This document shows positions 529 to 9,889 of a stretch of DNA of 10,347 bases, in pieces. A program made the position numbers and the translations under genes. How positions within the stretch are numbered: position 1 is the first letter of the stretch; every line of letters starts with the position of its first letter. The notes under the pieces are model-generated. The model was not told the origin of the DNA, did not search any database, and worked only from the letters and a program-made list of their open reading frames with translations. Origin of the DNA: Streptomyces sp. NBC_01454 (lineage in GTDB: Bacteria; Actinomycetota; Actinomycetes; Streptomycetales; Streptomycetaceae); contig NZ_CP109464.1 of the NCBI RefSeq assembly GCF_036227565.1, positions 1-10,347 on the forward strand. Direction: 5' to 3'.

Positions 529-1443
529 GGCCTTCTGCAGCACGTGCCAGCGGTTGGGGTTCTCCGCGTCCTGGACGATCTGCGCCGCCCCTCCCCCCGC
601 GCTGTTGCTGGCGCTGTTGCTGTTGTTGTTGCTGGCTTGTTGCTCGTTCTGACCTGCGACAACAACAGCAACAGCCGGGCCCGGGGCCCCCTCTTGGAAG
701 GGGCCGGGGGAGGGGCTCGGCGGGCGGGCCGGGAGGTCCTCGACACGCACCCCGGTGGAGACCCCCTTGCCGGCCCCCACACCGCGCGCCCGGGTGCCCT
801 TGGAGACGGGCACCGCAGAGGCCTCACACAGGGCCCGGCAGTCGGCCGGGGACCACCCCCCGGACGACCCCCCGCCGGGGTAGCGGGAGGACAGCCCCAC
901 GACCACCTGAGGCCAGTGCAAACCGGGGGTCGGCTTACCCCCCTCCGAGTGCTCCTCGACCAGGTCGTGGAGGAGGTGCAGGAACGCCTCCGGGGAGGGC
1001 CGGGGGCTGGCCTTCCCCGCGCCTTGCGAACCGGCCTCCCCCGGCGCCTCCTTGGCAGCCTTCGCCTTCTCGACGGAGACCTTGGTGCGCAGGGCCGCGA
1101 ACGACCACACGGCGCCCAGCGGCCACATCAGGGCGTGGTGGCGGTAGACCAGCCAGCACAGGCCCGCCCCGGCGCCGAGGAGCAGGGCGCCGCGGACGTA
1201 GATCCCGAGGTCCGCGCTGAGGCCCTTGAGATCACTGCGGTGGGCCTCCAGGCACCAGCCCTTGAGCCGGGCGGCGAGGGACTTGCCCAGGAGGCTGGAG
1301 CCCTCCCCCAGCGTCGAGCCCAGCCGGACCGCCCAGGCGCTGGCCGCCTTCGCCTTCTCCTCCGCCTGCTGAGCCTTGGCCTTCAGCTCGTCGGCGCGGT
1401 CGGCCAGAGGGCCGGTCTTCTCCGTGCTCGCCTCGACGGTCAC
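523..1443 (-). CDS. 306-aa Spd-like spread membrane protein (last gene of operon)
   Basis: The start is the GTG at 1441-1443, whose GTGA overlaps the stop of the gene before it; the frame is open further upstream but only across that gene. Residues 8-35 are a charged Ala/Lys/Glu helix, probably coiled coil. Two adjacent hydrophobic stretches (about 82-100 and 103-118) look like a membrane hairpin. Residues 150-230 form a compact domain with LHWPQVVVGLSSRYPGGGSS and WSPADCRALCEA, and a Pro-rich linker follows. The tail (about 264-285) is low complexity, with Ala/Val then Asn/Ser runs. Its place in a coupled membrane-protein operon next to a GntR regulator resembles the spd genes of Streptomyces plasmids, which act in spreading plasmid DNA between mycelial compartments. 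The Spd assignment is inferred from context and topology. Confidence 0.75.
   Translation of the reverse strand: MTVEASTEKTGPLADRADELKAKAQQAEEKAKAASAWAVRLGSTLGEGSSLLGKSLAARLKGWCLEAHRSDLKGLSADLGIYVRGALLLGAGAGLCWLVYRHHALMWPLGAVWSFAALRTKVSVEKAKAAKEAPGEAGSQGAGKASPRPSPEAFLHLLHDLVEEHSEGGKPTPGLHWPQVVVGLSSRYPGGGSSGGWSPADCRALCEASAVPVSKGTRARGVGAGKGVSTGVRVEDLPARPPSPSPGPFQEGAPGPAVAVVVAGQNEQQASNNNSNSASNSAGGGAAQIVQDAENPNRWHVLQKAG
613..675. repeat. 17-bp perfect inverted repeat inside the 306-aa gene
   Basis: Bases 613-629 (starting GCTGTTGCTGTTG) are the exact reverse complement of 659-675 (ending CAACAGCAACAGC), with a 29-base spacer. In the protein one arm encodes the Ala/Val run and the other the Asn/Ser run of the C-terminal tail. 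The arms look like trinucleotide-repeat expansions (GTT/AAC) much lower in GC than their surroundings. In the mRNA they would form a long hairpin within the coding sequence. Confidence 0.75.
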
Positions 1444-1943
1444 AGGGACACCGCCCCGTTGAGCACGTCCGCGGCGCTGCTGCCGAGTGCGTTGTACATC
1501 TCGGGCACCCACTGCATGAGCTGGGCGAAACCGGCCGTGGCGCACAGCGTCAGGCCCGCGAACACCCCACCGAACATGCGCTTCTTGTCCTGCTTGCCCG
1601 CCGCCTTCACGACGATCCCGCCGACGATCGCGGCGACCACGACCGCGCAGGCCCCGGGGTAGGTGAGGTGCCCGAGAGAGCCGTGAGCCAAGCTGCCGCC
1701 GCCATGCGCGCCGGTCGTGGCACCGACGCCCTTGTCACCGACCTTGTTGCTCGCCTGCACCGCCTGCATGGCGAACCAGCCGAAGAGGCCGCCCAGGCAC
1801 ATCGTCCAGCCCGCGCCGGTGATCAGCCCGCCGCCGAACGGCACCAGCGCCTTCAACTCCCTGGTGCCCTTCCACCAGGACCGCACATTGATGATCAAGA
1901 TCGCGACGGAGACCGTGGCCCCGGCAAGGGTGAGCGTGTTCAT
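1440..1943 (-). CDS. 167-aa four-helix membrane protein, Spd-like
   Basis: The ATG at 1941-1943 overlaps the upstream stop (ATGA), and its own stop overlaps the downstream GTG start in the same way. The sequence has four hydrophobic segments at about 5-21, 37-62, 97-114 and 123-143. Short basic stretches (RSWWKGTRELK, KAAGKQDKKR) lie between them and would favour the cytoplasmic side. A Gly/His-rich loop occupies about 68-92. Glycine spacing within the helices (GGGLITGAGW, GGLFGW) suggests close helix packing, as in an oligomeric membrane complex. The likely role is a component of the plasmid spread apparatus, inferred from operon context; no enzymatic motif is visible. Confidence 0.75.
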   Translation of the reverse strand: MNTLTLAGATVSVAILIINVRSWWKGTRELKALVPFGGGLITGAGWTMCLGGLFGWFAMQAVQASNKVGDKGVGATTGAHGGGSLAHGSLGHLTYPGACAVVVAAIVGGIVVKAAGKQDKKRMFGGVFAGLTLCATAGFAQLMQWVPEMYNALGSSAADVLNGAVSL

Positions 1944-2683
1944 GCGCGAACTCCCGTGATTGCGGCGACCAGGTCAGGCCAGAGCACGCCCCACGTGCCG
2001 CCGATGAAGGTGGTGACGACGCCGAAGGCATCGAAGAAGGTCAAGCGCCGGACGAGGTCCCCGGCGAGGGTGGCGCGCAAGCGGCAGGGCCGATGGATGC
2101 GCGCGAACACCACCGCGACCGTGGCGGCCGCCGCGACGTGGGAAGCCGCGTAGTGGATGTCCGTGCCGATGTGGTCCAGCGCGGAGCCCCAGATGCGGCC
2201 GACGCCGTACCCGACGCCCGGCAGCGGGTAGATCGCGGCGACCGTCGCGGTCACCGCCACGAGCGGAGAGACCCGGTAGGGCACGGCCCGCGCGAGGCGC
2301 TGCCACCACGTCAGGTCCGGCTCCACCGGCACCGGCTGGTGGACGGTGACGTGCACGTCGATCTGCTGCGGCTGGCCGTACGGGGCCGGCGGCTGCGGCG
2401 GCAGCCAGGGCGTCATCCCTCCACCACGGGGCGGGACCGGGGGCACGGGCGGCAGCCCGAACAGCCAATCTCCGGACCCGCCAGCGGCGGTGGCCACCTG
2501 GGGGACAGGCGGCGCGGCCGGGGTGGACACCGGCCCCTCAGCGGTGGCCGGGGTGGACGGCAGGCCCGGACGGAACGGCCACGCCTCCCCCGGGATCACC
2601 CGGCTCGGGGTGACCGGCCGCGGGGCCTGGACGGGCAGGTGGACAGTCGGCGCAGTCTCCGGCCGCGGAGGGGTGGCGGTCAT
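1940..2683 (-). CDS. 247-aa Pro-rich membrane protein, Spd-like
   Basis: The ATG at 2681-2683 overlaps the TGA of the 62-aa gene, and the stop overlaps the next ATG. Residues 1-130 are Pro/Ala/Gly-rich and probably disordered, with runs such as PPVPPVPPRGGG and a Gln/Pro stretch before DVHVTVHQPVPVEP. A Trp pair (TWWQRL) marks entry to the membrane part. Hydrophobic segments follow at about 140-162, 176-195 and 217-240, separated by a basic loop (ARIHRPCRLRATLAGDLVRR). A proline-rich cytoplasmic arm on a membrane anchor is compatible with known plasmid spread proteins, but I cannot match it to a named Spd protein. It is the third gene of the coupled operon. Confidence 0.75.
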   Translation of the reverse strand: MTATPPRPETAPTVHLPVQAPRPVTPSRVIPGEAWPFRPGLPSTPATAEGPVSTPAAPPVPQVATAAGGSGDWLFGLPPVPPVPPRGGGMTPWLPPQPPAPYGQPQQIDVHVTVHQPVPVEPDLTWWQRLARAVPYRVSPLVAVTATVAAIYPLPGVGYGVGRIWGSALDHIGTDIHYAASHVAAAATVAVVFARIHRPCRLRATLAGDLVRRLTFFDAFGVVTTFIGGTWGVLWPDLVAAITGVRA

Positions 2684-2868
2684 CCCAGGCCCCCGATCCG
2701 GCGCAGCAGCCAGGCCCGCACCCGCAGTTCGTCACCGTCGGGACCGGCGATCACCGGCCGCCGGGCGGCGACGTAGCCGGGCGGTAACGAGGCCGGGACG
2801 GGCTCGACGTCCCGCCACCAGCCCTGCACCGGCAGGATCGTCCGCGTCAGCACCACCGGGGCCGTCAT
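2680..2868 (-). CDS. 62-aa small soluble protein in the spread operon
   Basis: This gene is defined by 4-nt ATGA overlaps at both ends, with the DUF2637 gene before it and the Pro-rich membrane gene after it; that makes it a convincing gene despite its size. The sequence begins MTAPVVLTRTILPVQGWW and ends RVRAWLLRRIGGLG. It has no membrane helix, and the central part (PASLPPGYVAARRPVIAGPDGDE) suggests a small beta-rich fold. The C-terminus is a basic amphipathic helix. I do not recognise the family. Small soluble proteins between membrane genes are common in Streptomyces spd clusters. Confidence 0.75.
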   Translation of the reverse strand: MTAPVVLTRTILPVQGWWRDVEPVPASLPPGYVAARRPVIAGPDGDELRVRAWLLRRIGGLG

Positions 2869-3800
2869 GCCGCAACCCCCTGCAACGTCATCTGCTGCGG
2901 CTCCGGACGCGGCCCGCGCTCCTCGACCAGCGCGGCGAACTGCTTCTCGACCAGGCTCTTGCTGCGGCCAGCCAGCTCTGCCGTCTTACGGAGCGACAGC
3001 ACGCCCTCTCGCCAGCACTGCTCGATGACCGCCGCGGCCTCCTCCGCCGACAGACCACCCACCGGCTCAGGCTCCGGCTGGTACTCGGGCTCCGGCTCGA
3101 CCGGCGGTGCGGGCGCAGTCACGGCCGGGAACTCCGGCCGGTAAAGGCGGCCGGAGCCACCACAGATGGCCACCAGCGGCCGTACAGAGGCCGGAGCAGG
3201 CTCCGCGTCGGGCTGCGGCGCCGCGGGCGCTGAGGCGTCCTTCCAGCCCCACCAGCGGCGACGTGGGGTGTCCACCGGAGCGTCCACGGGGGTGTCCACC
3301 GGCTCGACCTGCGGCTCTACCGTCACCACGGTGGCCGGTCGGGCGGACCGCAGGACGCGGGTCACCAGGTCCGCGCAGCAGGCGATGCTGCCGACCGGGA
3401 GCGCCGCGGCGACGCCGACGAGCACCCAGTGAACCTGAGGCACCGGGCTCAGCCGTGGGCGCGTGCCCTCCAACGGCACCAGGCCATGCACGTAGTTCAG
3501 CGCCAAGCTGGCGAAGGTGTAGAGGACGAGCACCGTCAGCGCCGCCCGGCGGTGACGCCCAGCCAGAACCAGGCTGGCCACCAGCGCGAGGGCGATCGGC
3601 CCGTCAGCAGACAGCGGGTACAGCACCGCGCCCACGGCATCCAGGCCGATCGCGCGGCCCACATCGTGCAACGCCGTCCACGACACGACGAACGCGACGC
3701 CCGCGACGGCGACAAGGCCGACGACGAGACCGGCGCGGACACACGCGACGGTCTCCGGCGCCAACTCCGACGACTCAGGGGAGGCAGTAGAAGACAGCAC
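2865..3800 (-). CDS. DUF2637-type membrane protein with C-terminal helix-turn-helix
   Basis: The frame is open further upstream, but the GTG at 3798-3800 has an AAAGGTGG ribosome site six bases before it, and the longer version would run through the operator palindromes; this gives 311 aa. Four hydrophobic segments (about 23-45, 54-81, 86-106 and 123-145), with the LYPLSADGPIALALVASLVL signature in the second, match DUF2637 membrane proteins of actinomycete plasmids and integrative elements. A long Pro/Glu/Val linker with 'PVDTPVDAPVDT' repeats follows. The end (about 260-296) reads as a helix-turn-helix: EEAAAVIEQCWREG, then LSLRKTAELAGRSKSLVEKQ. First gene of the five-gene operon and divergent from the GntR gene, it is probably the repressed target. 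The role in transfer/spread and DNA tethering is inferred. Confidence 0.8.
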   Translation of the reverse strand: MLSSTASPESSELAPETVACVRAGLVVGLVAVAGVAFVVSWTALHDVGRAIGLDAVGAVLYPLSADGPIALALVASLVLAGRHRRAALTVLVLYTFASLALNYVHGLVPLEGTRPRLSPVPQVHWVLVGVAAALPVGSIACCADLVTRVLRSARPATVVTVEPQVEPVDTPVDAPVDTPRRRWWGWKDASAPAAPQPDAEPAPASVRPLVAICGGSGRLYRPEFPAVTAPAPPVEPEPEYQPEPEPVGGLSAEEAAAVIEQCWREGVLSLRKTAELAGRSKSLVEKQFAALVEERGPRPEPQQMTLQGVAA

Positions 3801-3833: not shown

Positions 3834-3953
3834 CCTGAAGGTTCGTGATGAACCTTCAGGTGAGTCACGAAGGTACATCGATGACCCTTCGAGGGCAAGC
3901 GATGTACCTATGGCGACCCGTGATGTACCTTGGCCCGCAGGAAGGTGCATCGC
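3834..3953. promoter_or_regulatory. Operator array between the GntR regulator and the spread operon
   Basis: The divergent intergenic region carries a related repeat family. A perfect palindrome has arms CCTGAAGGTTC (3834-3844) and GAACCTTCAGG (3850-3860) around GTGAT. An imperfect dyad runs 3868-3891 (CGAAGG..CATCGATG..CCTTCG). GATGTACCT occurs twice in direct orientation, at 3901-3909 and 3922-3930, 21 bp (two helical turns) apart. An inverted copy, GAAGGTGCATCGC, lies at 3941-3953, just before the GntR ribosome site. The shared core is AAGGTNCATC / GATGNACCTT. GntR regulators bind such dyads, and KorSA-type proteins repress their own and neighbouring plasmid genes, so these are the likely operators. 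I could not pin down -10/-35 elements with confidence. Confidence 0.75.
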
Positions 3954-3966
3954 GAAAGGAGTGAAG

Positions 3967-4713
3967 GTGGCATACAGGACAACTGGGGCCGGGTATGCGG
4001 AGATTGCCGCCCATTACCGGCAACTGATCGACGATGGAGAGCTATCGCCCGGCGACGCCCTGCCGTCCGTGGCAGACATCCGAGAGCACTACGAGGTGTC
4101 CGCGAAGACCGTGTCCCGCGCGCTCCAGGTCCTCAAGAACGAGGGCTTGGTTGGGTCCCGCGGCAGTCTGGGCACCGTCGTTGCCAGCCGCCCCCGCGTA
4201 GCGGCCGCCAGCGGAGACGCCCGCGTCCAGCGGACGCAGCGCGGCGGACCGAACTACGCCCCAGGCGAGACGAGCACCGGACACGTGGCCATGCTGCGGT
4301 CCTGTGCCGATCCCGTGATCTGCCAGCTACTCGACATCGAGCCGCACGACGAGATCGTGATCCGCCGACGGGTGTTCCGGCAGGACGGCGTACCCAGCGT
4401 GATCGGCGTCGAGTGCATCCATCCGCGCGCACTGTCCGTCGTCCCTGACCTGCTCAAACAAGGGCCACGGGGGCCAGTGCACTGGCTCATCGAGTACAAG
4501 GAGCAAACCGGTCGATCCACCCACGGGTCACCGGAGCGGCGGGCCGCCCGACTCGCCAGCCGTGACGAGCTGGAGATGCTGGAAGTCCCGTTGCCAGACT
4601 CAGACGTGGCGGTGCCGGTCTTGGTTACCTACGTCGTCTACCACGACGAGGACGGCCCCCTGGAGGTGATGGAGGACGTACACGCCCCAGGCCTCTGGCA
4701 CGAAGCGCGATAG
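3967..4713 (+). CDS. GntR-family (HutC/UTRA subfamily) transcriptional regulator, KorSA-like
   Basis: The GTG at 3967 is preceded by AAAGGAG with a five-base gap, giving 248 aa; starts further upstream would lie within the operator array. Residues 8-73 are the winged helix-turn-helix of GntR proteins: YAEIAAHYRQLIDDGELSPG, then ALPSVADIREHYEVSAKTVS and RALQVLKNEGLV, then the GSLGTVV wing. Residues about 100-240 fit the UTRA ligand-binding domain, with VIRRRVFRQDGVPSVIGVEC and the closing VTYVVYHDEDGPLEVMEDVH. Regulators of this type (KorSA of pSAM2 is the classic case) repress plasmid transfer and replication genes. It is the only gene on the plus strand and diverges from the spread operon over a dense set of dyads, so autoregulation and operon repression are likely. 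Any effector is unknown. Confidence 0.9.
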   Translation: MAYRTTGAGYAEIAAHYRQLIDDGELSPGDALPSVADIREHYEVSAKTVSRALQVLKNEGLVGSRGSLGTVVASRPRVAAASGDARVQRTQRGGPNYAPGETSTGHVAMLRSCADPVICQLLDIEPHDEIVIRRRVFRQDGVPSVIGVECIHPRALSVVPDLLKQGPRGPVHWLIEYKEQTGRSTHGSPERRAARLASRDELEMLEVPLPDSDVAVPVLVTYVVYHDEDGPLEVMEDVHAPGLWHEAR

Positions 4714-4776: not shown

Positions 4777-5109
4777 ACACCGTCCGTCCACTGGTGTCCA
4801 CGCCTTCGGTCCGTAAGCCTCCGTGGCCTGGTGCGTCGGCGACTGCGGGTGCGTCGAGCCGGTCAAAAGCGGCTGCCTGCGGAGGGGGTGGACAGGGGTG
4901 GCGTCCGGCCACCGTCCACCACTGTCCACCGTGGCCGATCGCCGTACCCCCGCCGTCACGGATGCAGGCGCATGAGGCGACCGGCCACCGGCCATGGCCG
5001 GTGGGGGAGCAATCTGCTGCCGCGATGTGGCCGGCCACCGTGACGCTTCCAGCGCTGCGGCCATCGTCGTGGCCGATCGTCCGGCCAACCGGCCATGGGC
5101 GGTGGCCGG
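4777..5109. other. 333-bp non-coding region with clustered GGCC palindromes
   Basis: No frame here looks coding. It lies between the convergent GntR gene and zinc-ribbon gene. Notable structures are GTGGACACC/GGTGTCCAC (4773-4781 and 4793-4801); GGTGGACAG/CTGTCCACC (4887-4895 and 4922-4930) around a smaller GGTGG/CCACC stem; a perfect 20-bp palindrome at 4985-5004; and ACCGGCC/GGCCGGT arms near 5090-5112. GTGGCCGATCG occurs twice (about 4931 and 5070) and GGCCACCG recurs several times. Such a cluster could be a replication, transfer or resolution site; nothing in the sequence decides between these. Confidence 0.5.
4985..5004. repeat. Perfect 20-bp palindrome
   Basis: CCACCGGCCATGGCCGGTGG is identical to its own reverse complement with no spacer. 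It is the most symmetric element of the intergenic region, and variants (GGCCATGGGCGGTGGCCGG) recur about 100 bp downstream. It could be a protein-binding or cruciform-forming site. Confidence 0.8.
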
Positions 5110-5499
5110 TCAGAACAACCGGCCCTTGGGCAGGCCCTGGAACACGTCGGACGCCCGACGTGGTTGAGGCCGACGCGAGGAGGCCGGCCTTTCCGCCGGT
5201 TCGGCCGGGGCGGGAATCGCCGGAACCTCCGTTTCGTCAACCGGAGAATTCGTTTCGTCCGTTGACGAATCGGTCGTTTCTCCCGTTGACGAAACGGTTT
5301 CTCGTGTTGACGAAACGGCAGCCGCGTCGGCCAGTGCCTCAGCGATCAGACGATCGTCCCGACGCCGGCGGTACGCGCGTTCCCGGCACAGCCGCGTGCA
5401 GTAGTCCCGGCTCCGGCCTACACCGGATTGCTTGATCGGTCCGCCGCACCAGCCGCACAGCTTCGCGCCGGCGCCGTCCCGTGGGGTCTCGTACGTCAT
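5110..5499 (-). CDS. 129-aa zinc-ribbon protein with acidic Ser/Thr repeat tail
   Basis: The ATG at 5497-5499 begins the conserved-looking part. No ribosome site precedes it, and the frame stays open upstream through the CCGTCATG array, so a start near 5558 or 5606, or a leaderless transcript, is possible. Residues 15-38 hold four Cys in the pattern CGWCG...YCTRLCRERA, followed by a very basic RAYRRRRDDR helix. This is a zinc-binding, probably nucleic-acid-binding module. Residues about 61-91 are an 8-residue repeat (VSSTRET, VSSTGET, DSSTDET, SPVDET), an acidic flexible linker. The end (ASDVFQGLPKGRLF) is short and basic. The Cys layout matches the N-terminus of Rep on the same plasmid. Proximity suggests that it binds the adjacent array; this is inferred. 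Confidence 0.65.
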   Translation of the reverse strand: MTYETPRDGAGAKLCGWCGGPIKQSGVGRSRDYCTRLCRERAYRRRRDDRLIAEALADAAAVSSTRETVSSTGETTDSSTDETNSPVDETEVPAIPAPAEPAERPASSRRPQPRRASDVFQGLPKGRLF

Positions 5500-5518
5500 G
5501 CCGTGACCGTAGCCGGGT

Positions 5519-5612
5519 CCGTCATGGCGTCCGTCATGGCGCCCGTCATGACCCGTCATGGGGTTGGCCGCATGACGGACCCATGACGGGGGCCTGACGG
5601 GCGCCATGACGG
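5519..5612. repeat. Phased array of eight CCGTCATG motifs in two opposed blocks
   Basis: CCGTCATG occurs exactly at 5519, 5531, 5543 and 5553. Its reverse complement CATGACGG occurs at 5571 and 5582, as a one-base variant at 5593, and again exactly at 5605. Spacing is 10-12 bp, close to one helical turn, so the sites line up along one DNA face, and the two blocks point toward a centre near 5565. A 7/8 match (5493-5500) contains the ATG of the zinc-ribbon gene. The array could be an iteron-type or operator array, or a transfer (clt-like) locus of the kind where TraB translocases recognise 8-bp repeats. Confidence 0.85.
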
Positions 5613-5616
5613 ACGC

Positions 5617-6015
5617 TGTTACAAGTTTCTCTACTGGATCAAGGCCGCCCGCTGGCGCGGTCGGCGCGGTCCGGCGTCGGCCGGACCGCTCCTGTCTCCG
5701 CCCCGCTCCCCGGCCACGCTCGGACCGCCGGCCAACGAGCCCGGCCGGGACCGTCGAGGACGTCATCGACCGCCGCTGTACGTCAGCGAGATGACGTACT
5801 CCGTCGAGCACCAGGAGCACGAGCAGCTGCTCGGCCGCCTCCCGAACTTCTCGACAGCCCGGCCGACCAATCCCCCACACCTATGCATCACGACCTAGCG
5901 GCCGATCCAGCACGAGCACCAGGCGCTCGACGAGCTTCAGCGGTCGCGGGGCCGACGGGGCCGGGTCGCTCCTGCCTGCGCCCCCGCTCCCCGGCCCCTC
6001 CAGCCCCCTCGGGGA
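5617..6015. other. 400-bp stretch without a convincing gene
   Basis: An AT-richer patch at 5617-5640 (GTTACAAGTTTCTCTACTGG) sits just beyond the CCGTCATG array and could hold a promoter for either strand, though no clear -10/-35 pair is visible. A degenerate 32-33 bp repeat, sharing GCTCCTG.CT.CGCCCC and GCTCCCCGGCC, occurs at 5684-5715 and 5963-5995. A 35-codon plus-strand ORF at 5791-5898 exists but is not supported well enough to call. Confidence 0.4.
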
Positions 6016-7260: not shown

Positions 7261-7341
7261 GGTTCCACCGTGCGTACCACCGCAAGGTCCACCGTGGGTT
7301 CCACCGTCGGTACCAGCGTGCGTACCACCGTGGGTACCAGG
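7261..7341. repeat. Tandem 12-bp repeat array (about seven units)
   Basis: Consecutive 12-base units start at 7261, 7273, 7285, 7297, 7309, 7321 and 7333 (the last partial) and follow the consensus GGTACCACCGTG with one to a few changes each. No plausible gene covers them; reading frames through them give only artificial repeats. Tandem direct repeats near a plasmid initiator are typical of iterons or of recognition repeats in transfer loci. Confidence 0.85.
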
Positions 7342-7864: not shown

Positions 7865-9889
7865 TCACTCCTGGGTGTTCGGATCGTCGCCGTCGTCGTC
7901 GGCCGCGTCGCCCACGATCCGGCCGGAGCCGCCGCACTCGAAGCACTGGCCGTCGCGGATCGCGCGGTACTTCTCCAGCACGCCGGAGCCGTCGCACTTC
8001 GGGCACGGAGCCAGTTGCAGCCCCTGCTCCAACAGCCGTTCCAGCATCGCCTTGTCGTCGGCCCGCGCCTTTGCCTTGGCCTTCATCACCTCGGCCAGCG
8101 AGGTCACGTACTCGGCGCAGCCGTCGCCGTCGACCACCCGCGCGTGGTCCTCCCGGCCGCCGGACTCAGCGACCAGGGCGGACACCTCGGCCTCCCGCTC
8201 CGTGCGCACCAGCTCGGCCACGGCGAAGTCGTTCTCAGCCTCGGCCACGTGGCCGTGCGCTTCCTGCGTCAGCACGACGCCCGCGAGCAGCTGCACGCGC
8301 GACTCCTCGTAGCGGTACTTCTCCAGTTCGCCGACCAGGTCGGCGTGCCGCTTGAGCCCCCGCGTCATCTCGAACGCGCGACGGCCGCGCGTCGCCGTCT
8401 CGTACTCCAGCGACCACGCGCGGCACTGCTCCGCAGTCCCGTAGCCCGGCGCCTCGTCCTCGTCCAGGCCGTCACGCTCGATCGCCCACAGGCGGTCGAG
8501 GAACTGGAACGGCGTCATGGACTTCCGGCCCTTGGCCAGCTTGGCCCCGGAGTACGACACCTCGGCCGCCGCACCCTTGGCCGCCTCGATGTCGGCCTTC
8601 ACCGACTCGGCCGTCTCGCCCCCGGCCTTCGTCAGGTACTCGATCAGCGCTTGGTCGTCCGGCGACGTGATGACCGTGAAGCTCACGCCGTGACCCTTCC
8701 CCCCGCACTTGCAGTTGGCCCGCTCGCACTCGGTGCTGGGGGTGTAGGCCGGATCGATCGACTTCAGGGCATCGGCCCAGAACTGGCGTAGCCACCCCTC
8801 GAACTTGGTCATCGACTTCGTGGACGGCTCGAACGTGCAACTGCCCTCCCCGGGCTCGAACGCGCAGTCGCCGTCCTCGTCCACGTAGACCAGCTCCCCG
8901 TTCGCCGGGGTGCCGGACAGCCGTCCCCCGAGGAACACCAGGGCGTTGAGGTGCGGGTTCCACCCGTTGTCGAGCGACCGCGTCACCTCGGGGTTCCGGG
9001 CCATGCCGACGTAGCCGACCTCGGCGGCCAGGTCGCCCCGCAGAGCGTGGCTCTTGAGCATCTTCTGGTACGCGCCCGGTTGGCGCGGGGTGATCTGCCC
9101 CGTCTCCGCGTCCACCAGCTTCCGCGTGCCCTGCAAGCCGTCGATCAGGTCGGCCAGGGCGTGCGTCCGGTTGTGGCGCGTCGTCAACACGACGGCCACG
9201 AGCGTCCCCCCCTTGGCCAGCCACCGCAGGGCTGCCGTGGTCAGTTCGTGGGTGTCCTCCGCGCGCTTGGCGCTCTCGCACACCGCGCACGCCCAGATGG
9301 ACTCGCAGAGCTGCACCCCCCGGCCGGACGCCTGCCCGCGTTCGTCGCGCGCCGTCAGCGTCCCCAGCTCCGGCGCGACCGCGACCCGCGCGCACTTGCG
9401 GCACCGGTCGATCTGGGTGAACTCCTGCATGATCCGGCGCCGTCGCCACTTCCGCAGCGCGGGGGTTACCGGCGTGGTCTCCCGTTTCGGGGTCTGCCTC
9501 GCACCGCCGTCGACCGTGCCGCCGGTGGCTCCGGTCTCGGTTTCCGGGGCCCCGGTCCCCGCACCGCTGTGACCTGGGGTTTCTTGGGCCCGCGAACTCT
9601 GTTCGTCAGTTACCAAGAAGTGGACACCACGAGGGGTGTCTTTCCGCAGGTCAGAGGCCGTTTTTGGGGGTCGAACCTCGTCCCCCTTGGAGGCCGCCTT
9701 GGAGACCGCCTTGCGGCACGCCGAAGAGCAGTAACTCTGTCCCGGTTTACGGGGGTTTAGGGTGAACTTTTTCGAGCAGCCCCGGCGGCGGCACGTGCGG
9801 CGGGGCCCGGGCACACGAACGGCCCTGGTCAGCGACGTGTCAGCCGGACCGTGTGGCGGTACTGGGGTGTCATTGCTTACGCTGGCCAC
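7865..9889 (-). CDS. rep: Rolling-circle replication initiator (pIJ101/RepSA-like), 674 aa
   Basis: The GTG at 9887-9889 has AAGGGGA about nine bases upstream. Cys33/38/54/58 form an N-terminal zinc module. Cys163/166 with Cys195/201/204 (CRKC, CESIWACAVC) form the cysteine core usual in actinomycete Rep proteins. LVAVVLTTRHNRTHALADL (about 230-248) is the first Rep motif. The metal-binding motif is GWNPHLNALVFLG, with His313 but Asn315 where a second His is expected. IEYLTK (Tyr418) fits the catalytic tyrosine, and KSMTPFQFLD follows as in relatives. Residues 500-625 are charged helix, and the C-terminus carries CPKCDGSG and CFECGGSG (DnaJ-type zinc repeats). At 674 residues it is longer than RepSA (about 460). 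The role is nicking at the double-strand origin to start replication. Confidence 0.92.
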   Translation of the reverse strand: MASVSNDTPVPPHGPADTSLTRAVRVPGPRRTCRRRGCSKKFTLNPRKPGQSYCSSACRKAVSKAASKGDEVRPPKTASDLRKDTPRGVHFLVTDEQSSRAQETPGHSGAGTGAPETETGATGGTVDGGARQTPKRETTPVTPALRKWRRRRIMQEFTQIDRCRKCARVAVAPELGTLTARDERGQASGRGVQLCESIWACAVCESAKRAEDTHELTTAALRWLAKGGTLVAVVLTTRHNRTHALADLIDGLQGTRKLVDAETGQITPRQPGAYQKMLKSHALRGDLAAEVGYVGMARNPEVTRSLDNGWNPHLNALVFLGGRLSGTPANGELVYVDEDGDCAFEPGEGSCTFEPSTKSMTKFEGWLRQFWADALKSIDPAYTPSTECERANCKCGGKGHGVSFTVITSPDDQALIEYLTKAGGETAESVKADIEAAKGAAAEVSYSGAKLAKGRKSMTPFQFLDRLWAIERDGLDEDEAPGYGTAEQCRAWSLEYETATRGRRAFEMTRGLKRHADLVGELEKYRYEESRVQLLAGVVLTQEAHGHVAEAENDFAVAELVRTEREAEVSALVAESGGREDHARVVDGDGCAEYVTSLAEVMKAKAKARADDKAMLERLLEQGLQLAPCPKCDGSGVLEKYRAIRDGQCFECGGSGRIVGDAADDDGDDPNTQE

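Follow-up and report, generated by a model that had tools for sequence, protein, structure and literature searches.

A two-block 8-mer array on a small Streptomyces plasmid resembles the arrays behind SLP2-type traB genes and may be a clt-like site used in trans

A 94-bp array of short repeats on a small plasmid of Streptomyces sp. NBC_01454 has the motif and layout of arrays that follow SLP2-type traB genes, although the plasmid itself carries no recognisable traB. Judged from sequence comparisons, it is probably a clt-like recognition array of SLP2-type TraB that is used in trans, and the plasmid would then be a relaxase-free hitch-hiker equipped with a clt only; this reading is held with moderate confidence. 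The stretch of DNA analysed, here called the window, is contig C5 (10,347 bases) of a five-contig assembly, in which C2, C3 and C4 have 639,479, 388,248 and 62,906 bases. The array (5519..5612) lies between spdA and the replication region and holds eight copies of CCGTCATG, seven exact and one with a single mismatch, in two facing blocks of four (Table 1).

The array is real and far above chance. The top 8-mer of the window was counted seven times (both strands, per 100 bp), against a top count for any 8-mer of 2 in 182 and 3 in 118 of 300 dinucleotide-preserving shuffles of the window, and never more than 3. Start-to-start steps are 12, 12 and 10 bp in the left block, 18 bp over the centre, and 11, 11 and 12 bp thereafter, which confirms the four direct and four inverted copies, one mismatched, at 10-12 bp steps described in the first-pass annotation. 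Outside the array, the window has one exact CCGTCATG, at 2862. A ninth near-copy over the spdA start codon had also been described; it is present, but it is probably coding sequence and is left out of the unit count, since pJV1, which has no array, carries the identical letters GTACGTCATG at its own spdA start. The distance from the array end to the spdA start is 20 bp. An Rfam search of the window returned zero matches.

Table 1. Positions of the array, its neighbours and related features
Feature	Position	Strand	Remarks
Left block	5519..5560	+	exact CCGTCATG x4, at 5519, 5531, 5543, 5553
Central gap, 10 bp	5561..5570		separates the facing blocks
Right block	5571..5612	-	CCGTCATG at 5571, 5582, 5605; CCGTCAGG (one mismatch) at 5593-5600
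Near-copy ACGTCATG	5493-5500	+	covers the spdA start codon
spdA/spdA2-type gene, 129 aa	5110..5499	-	tblastn to the pIJ101 spdA2 region and relatives
sps-like palindrome CGTCCGTTGACG	5256..5267		inside spdA; pattern CGTCNNNNGACG
GntR-family regulator	3910..4713	+	Pfam PF00392, PF07702; longest reading, annotated protein shorter
DUF2637 protein	2865..3800	-	Pfam PF10935; occupies the place of tra beside the GntR gene in pIJ101
Replication protein	7865..9889	-	annotation of identical NZ_CP109459.1; annotated start further in, 521 aa
CGCCGTACCCCCGCCGTCACGGATGC ... CTGCTGCCGCGATGTGG stretch	window ~4930-5045; L145 4820-5135; L156 8250-8565; L193 3696-3946; L150 10375-10690		
Linear-plasmid array	NZ_CP109310.1 (L199), 3.7-4.1 kb from left end		two specificities
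Linear-plasmid array	NZ_CP109519.1 (L200), near 319.4 kb of 327.3 kb		
CGTGAGC clusters	L007, L153, L154, L157, L158, L191, L195		

The window sequence recurs at 100% in NZ_CP109459.1 (Streptomyces sp. NBC_01456, 20,689 bases), which has the gene set twice in tandem; the set comprises genes for a replication protein, a regulator of the GntR family, a DUF2637 protein and small unnamed products. Tandem dimers were likewise seen in NZ_CP109458.1, CP109521.1 and G066:C3, while the window is a single unit; such records may be real multimers or assembly artefacts. Seven Tra/TraB queries (two SLP2-type, three pJV1/pSN22-type and two pIJ101-type) gave no tblastn match in the window, nor in its dimer, NZ_CP109458.1, pNKL, pSNA1, the S. 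anulatus plasmid or G066:C3, and none of the seven window proteins examined belonged to the FtsK/TraB family by Pfam or NCBIfam. A clt is expected to have traB on the same element; the window plasmid has none that is recognisable, and because of this the array is not classed as an ordinary clt. Elsewhere in the same genome, SLP2-type TraB matched only two weak places, both on contig C1 (E about 2e-4), and all seven FtsK_SpoIIIE places are also on C1. By these searches an SLP2-type TraB is absent from the genome, so no helper is at hand there.

Compared with 72,556 plasmid records, the array gave as its first match pSglau1 of S. glaucescens, at 78%. The two-block pattern (two forward and one reverse unit) was found in 34 stretches of genome contigs and 2 of viral contigs; by eye, phased arrays of the window form occurred among the 34 only in S. 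glaucescens NRRL B-2706 (L068) and [Kitasatospora] papulosa NRRL B-16504 (L044). In L068 and pSglau1 the first unit begins 1 and 0 bases, respectively, past the stop of a gene for a 542-aa FtsK/SpoIIIE protein, and in pSglau1 the next gene after the array specifies a lytic transglycosylase. This protein was matched over at least 80% of its length by 26 plasmid records, 25 of them at 44-78% identity and including SLP2, and at E<=1e-50 it was present in 17 of the 392 Streptomyces genomes. At the protein level, 7,997 candidates were scored and 238 clusters passed E<=0.001; the one that holds the pSglau1 protein is named TraSLP2. The window array and that of S. glaucescens NRRL B-2706 are both 4+4, with an identical 22-bp centre (CCGCATGACGGACCCATGACGG), and traB is followed by the CCGTCATG form in S. 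glaucescens, in pSglau1 and in others; the centre step in L068 and pSglau1 is 18 to 20 bp start to start.

In the genes compared, facing arrays of the window form directly follow SLP2-type traB. Twenty-six traB genes with 25 different motor sequences were compared: 17 from the genome search, six from records chosen among the 26 matching plasmid records, and those of L068, pSglau1 and a K. papulosa contig (L113), with a copy of L068 left out. When the best 8-mer was counted within 150 bp after the stop, allowing one mismatch and taking non-overlapping units on either strand, every one of the 26 had 7 to 13 units; a count of 7 was reached by 25 random pieces out of 483 and by 3 shuffles out of 260. 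The motifs vary, and include CCGTCATG, CCGCCATG, CCGCCACC, CCGCACC, CCGCTGG, CCGCCGG and CCGTCAG. The arrays of SLP2, pSglau1 and S. glaucescens NRRL B-2706 consist, like that of the window, of facing 8-mer blocks with steps of about 11 bp, and in pSglau1 and S. glaucescens the motif is also the same; the setting differs, as those arrays have traB before and a lytic transglycosylase gene after them. The first-pass annotation had regarded the two-block symmetry as more like an operator or origin, but facing blocks are the very form seen behind SLP2-type traB, and its other suggestion, a likeness to the TraB repeats of clt loci, proved to be the right lead.

The counts depend on how arrays are detected. 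Pairs of the form CCGTCATGN{1,8}CCGTCATG occurred in 181 of 392 genomes, but many were lone pairs or coding tandem repeats, and this figure is no measure of arrays; a degenerate array pattern matched 368 of 392 genomes and was discarded as too loose. A strict detector (exact 6-mers, at least 3+3), run over 1,194,056 bases of loci, copies included, picked up 16 of the 26 arrays behind traB, those of the window and its copies, of pSN22, of the 8.7-kb S. californicus plasmid and of the S. anulatus plasmid, and also a 16-bp tandem repeat unrelated to them (L166). Ten traB arrays escaped it, as did those of the 9.2-kb S. californicus and the S. olivoreticuli plasmids, and since known arrays were thus missed, array counts were taken from the tail comparison and the 150-bp score.

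Among the traB genes compared, the array motif goes with the C-terminal tail of TraB. At least two copies of CCG[ACT]CATG were present in the arrays of 11 of 12 rows with a GRG[YH] tail (the exception being L124) and in 0 of 14 with other tails (Fisher p 1.6e-6, relatedness not corrected, and with the rule read off the very rows used to test it). On a tree of the TraB motor, built without the last 30 residues, tail type requires 9 changes and array type 8; in eight supported independent pairs the array followed the tail in seven, showed no difference in one and went contrary in none (p 0.016). Tail and array can also change jointly between motors that are nearly identical: L134 and L113 share 97% identity in the motor and 50% in the tail, with arrays of CCGCTGG and CCGTCATG, respectively, while two elements of one genome (L125 and L131) share 94% and 64%. 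Within the CATG rows, K after RGY went with CCGTCA (six rows) and R with CCGCCA (four rows), with L127 as the exception, but outside these rows the K/R rule fails (L121, L122, L123). Linkage alone could keep tail and array together, because they are adjacent and a single recombination event transfers the pair. For the S. glaucescens TraB, an AlphaFold2 model (mean pLDDT 77) resembles FtsK motors (6t8o, E 3.8e-13; TM-score 0.4-0.5), and its residues 473-541 form helices and strands in winged-helix order, with RGYK in the last strand, which is read here as a predicted winged helix like that of FtsK.

The position of these arrays corresponds to that of published clt loci. PMC3583192 gives the clt of pJV1 as nine direct repeats of CCGCACA[C/G][C/G], and the pJV1 record shows nine TGTGCGG directly behind traB, spanning the origin of the record; as these repeats directly follow traB, the published clt position is that of the SLP2-type arrays. 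CCGCACA clusters also occur behind traB in pSN22, NZ_CP108216.1 and G354:C2, and pSSPS4.7b, apparently the same plasmid as L191, has GGTGTCA there. The clt repeats of pSVH1, pJV1 and pIJ101 are short-repeat clusters bound by an FtsK-like TraB (PMC3583192). The window array, with eight 8-bp units of the motif and layout of the CCGTCATG-type traB arrays, is likewise a short-repeat cluster of this kind, but the pJV1 repeats run in one direction whereas the window array is built of facing blocks, on an element that lacks a recognisable traB. According to PMC12857230, TraB binds 8-bp clt repeats and also clt-like sequences on chromosomes, which are thus TraB-bound repeats outside the TraB-encoding plasmid; the window array, by comparison, is dense, has two blocks and sits on a small plasmid that is autonomous. 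Full-text searches of open-licence literature yielded no paper on SLP2-type arrays or a clt-only plasmid. As a separate observation, clusters of CGTGAGC (5-7 copies in 160 bp) were seen in several rolling-circle plasmids, away from traB and arrays.

If the array is a TraB site used in trans, then whenever a helper element with a matching SLP2-type TraB shares the mycelium with the small plasmid, the TraB of the helper, an FtsK/SpoIIIE-like DNA pump, would load onto the facing 8-mers, and the small plasmid would be pumped into the recipient as double-stranded DNA, with no need for a relaxase or tra gene of its own. Small mobilizable plasmids of other bacteria are known for oriT mimicry, where, as proposed here, possession of a cis site would be enough for a small plasmid to exploit the machinery of another element; the difference is that the machinery proposed for the window is a double-stranded-DNA pump and involves no nicking. 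Against hitch-hiking, the sister plasmid NZ_CP109458.1, pNKL and pSNA1 have neither a Tra match nor an array, so these relatives do without one. NZ_CP109458.1 (L145, in NBC_01456) has part of the window backbone, with MobC and a relaxase in place of the array (1170-3526), and near relatives lacking a Tra match may have two different mobilisation routes.

Facing arrays were also found on other small plasmids, in every case without an SLP2-type traB match on the stretch read. The linear plasmid pSCL1 (11,696 bp) has units in both directions, five forward and four reverse, of which six are exact CCGTCATG, and gave no Tra match. In pSN22 an SLP2-type array (CCGCCAT, 5+5) lies 3' of rep, separate from the CCGCACA repeats behind its own traB. 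The S. californicus plasmids of 8.7 and 9.2 kb combine an array with a pIJ101-type Tra, the S. anulatus plasmid has an array and a relaxase, and a 61.6-kb plasmid of S. olivoreticuli (12 kb read) has an array and a weak Tra-like match (E 2e-4). Two of these arrays are weak by the 8-mer score, that of the 9.2-kb S. californicus plasmid reaching 6 (as did 66 of 483 random pieces, at 6 or more) and that of S. olivoreticuli 7. Except for the window and the 8.7-kb plasmid, all came from array searches, and they give no frequency. Among 11 small plasmids scanned without regard to arrays, only the 8.7-kb S. californicus plasmid had one; none was found in pIJ101, pJV1, pSSPS4.7b, NZ_CP109458.1, pNKL, NZ_CP108216.1, pTSC2, the S. 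subrutilus and S. longwoodensis plasmids or pSNA1. The window and pSCL1 have the motif but little else in common, as their GntR proteins share 27% identity and their DUF2637 proteins could not be significantly aligned, and a motif common to two otherwise unrelated plasmids speaks for a reader that is encoded elsewhere. Arrays of SLP2-type form were also noticed near the ends of two large linear plasmids (Table 1), with no traB in the roughly 8 kb read.

The resemblance to S. glaucescens would also be expected of a relic, left by an ancestor that had, or recombined with, an SLP2-type transfer region of which the array alone remains, now functionless. The DUF2637 gene, sitting where pIJ101 has tra, fits such a history. 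It is nevertheless an unlikely one, as seven of eight units are exact, no trace of flanking traB or transglycosylase genes is found beside the array, and arrays occur on unrelated small plasmids as well.

Proximity to spdA raises the alternative of an operator or stability site, acted on by SpdA (or GntR) and affecting spdA expression or plasmid inheritance. Along roughly 35 residues at its N terminus, the 129-aa protein matches (tblastn) the SpdA2 region of pIJ101 and relatives, and the DNA matches too; a search of genome contigs found no SpdA relatives, and 79 of 392 Streptomyces genomes matched at E<=0.001, mostly weakly. As described in PMC4170104, SpdA2 binds sps, a 12-bp palindrome, loss of either spdA2 or sps lowers segregational stability and leaves transfer unaffected, and the spdA start of pEN2701 and pSVH1 has the sps site upstream of it or across it. 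Like the sps of pIJ101, the window array sits at spdA and contains CGTCA, an arm of CGTCACGTGACG, of which pIJ101 and pJV1 have two copies each. The sps of pIJ101, however, is a palindrome in 1-3 copies, mostly within spdA (PMC4170104), whereas the array consists of eight one-way units: CGTCNNNNGACG occurs in the window only at 464, 5256 and 8656, and not within 5519-5612, so the 12-bp palindrome of the CGTCACGTGACG kind is absent there, with one such site inside spdA instead. No facing array lay beside spdA in any of the seven other spdA plasmids scanned (pIJ101, pJV1, pSSPS4.7b, NBC_01298 in part, S. subrutilus, S. californicus 8.7 kb and S. longwoodensis), a count from a scan separate from the motif search for SpdA upstream regions, which picked up nothing but pIJ101, L078 and the dimer of the window itself. 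On both flanks of the array, pJV1 is similar to the window, yet it lacks the array. The same array class, moreover, stands behind traB and on pSCL1, which is outside the 15 records with an SpdA match. The earlier proposal of a binding site for the adjacent zinc-ribbon protein is therefore unsupported, and the absence of the array from plasmids with the same gene, which had been named as grounds for rejection, holds for SpdA as far as seven plasmids go; an SpdA or GntR site is quite improbable.

Phased 8-mers in facing blocks also occur in iterons and centromere-like sites, and four of the arrays on other small plasmids are close to the 3' end of rep or a rep-like gene, but a replication or partition site bound by Rep or a host protein is improbable here, since NZ_CP109458.1, pNKL and pSNA1, with part of the backbone in common, replicate without the array, and the window and pSCL1 have the motif, not the replicon, in common.

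A recognition array read in trans by SLP2-type TraB thus remains the preferred explanation, and it can be tentatively extended, at a little under even confidence, to a class of small plasmids that would spread with only a TraB 'barcode'. SLP2-type pumps would then have exchangeable specificity cassettes of tail plus array, and unrelated small plasmids would have taken up arrays matching the pumps circulating in soil Streptomyces. Candidate members are the window and pSCL1, with CCGTCATG, and the pSN22, S. californicus, S. anulatus and S. olivoreticuli plasmids, with other motifs. Taken with pSCL1 and pSN22, the array opens the question to direct testing on known small plasmids. If the proposal is true, the typing of such plasmids as 'non-mobilizable' would be wrong, small Streptomyces plasmids could be classified according to the helper that carries them, and tail/array pairs would yield a readable DNA-recognition code for a double-stranded-DNA pump.

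A non-coding stretch between the GntR gene and spdA (CGCCGTACCCCCGCCGTCACGGATGC ... CTGCTGCCGCGATGTGG; Table 1), for which Rfam gives no match, is conserved in five plasmids, namely the window, NZ_CP109458.1, pSNA1, G066:C3 and pNKL, all without a Tra match. Just past the array (5620-5644) lies a box, TACAA[CG]TTTC[CT]CTAC-N3-ATCAAGG, which is also present in pIJ101 (L005) at 7269 and in pJV1 (L006) at 4346.
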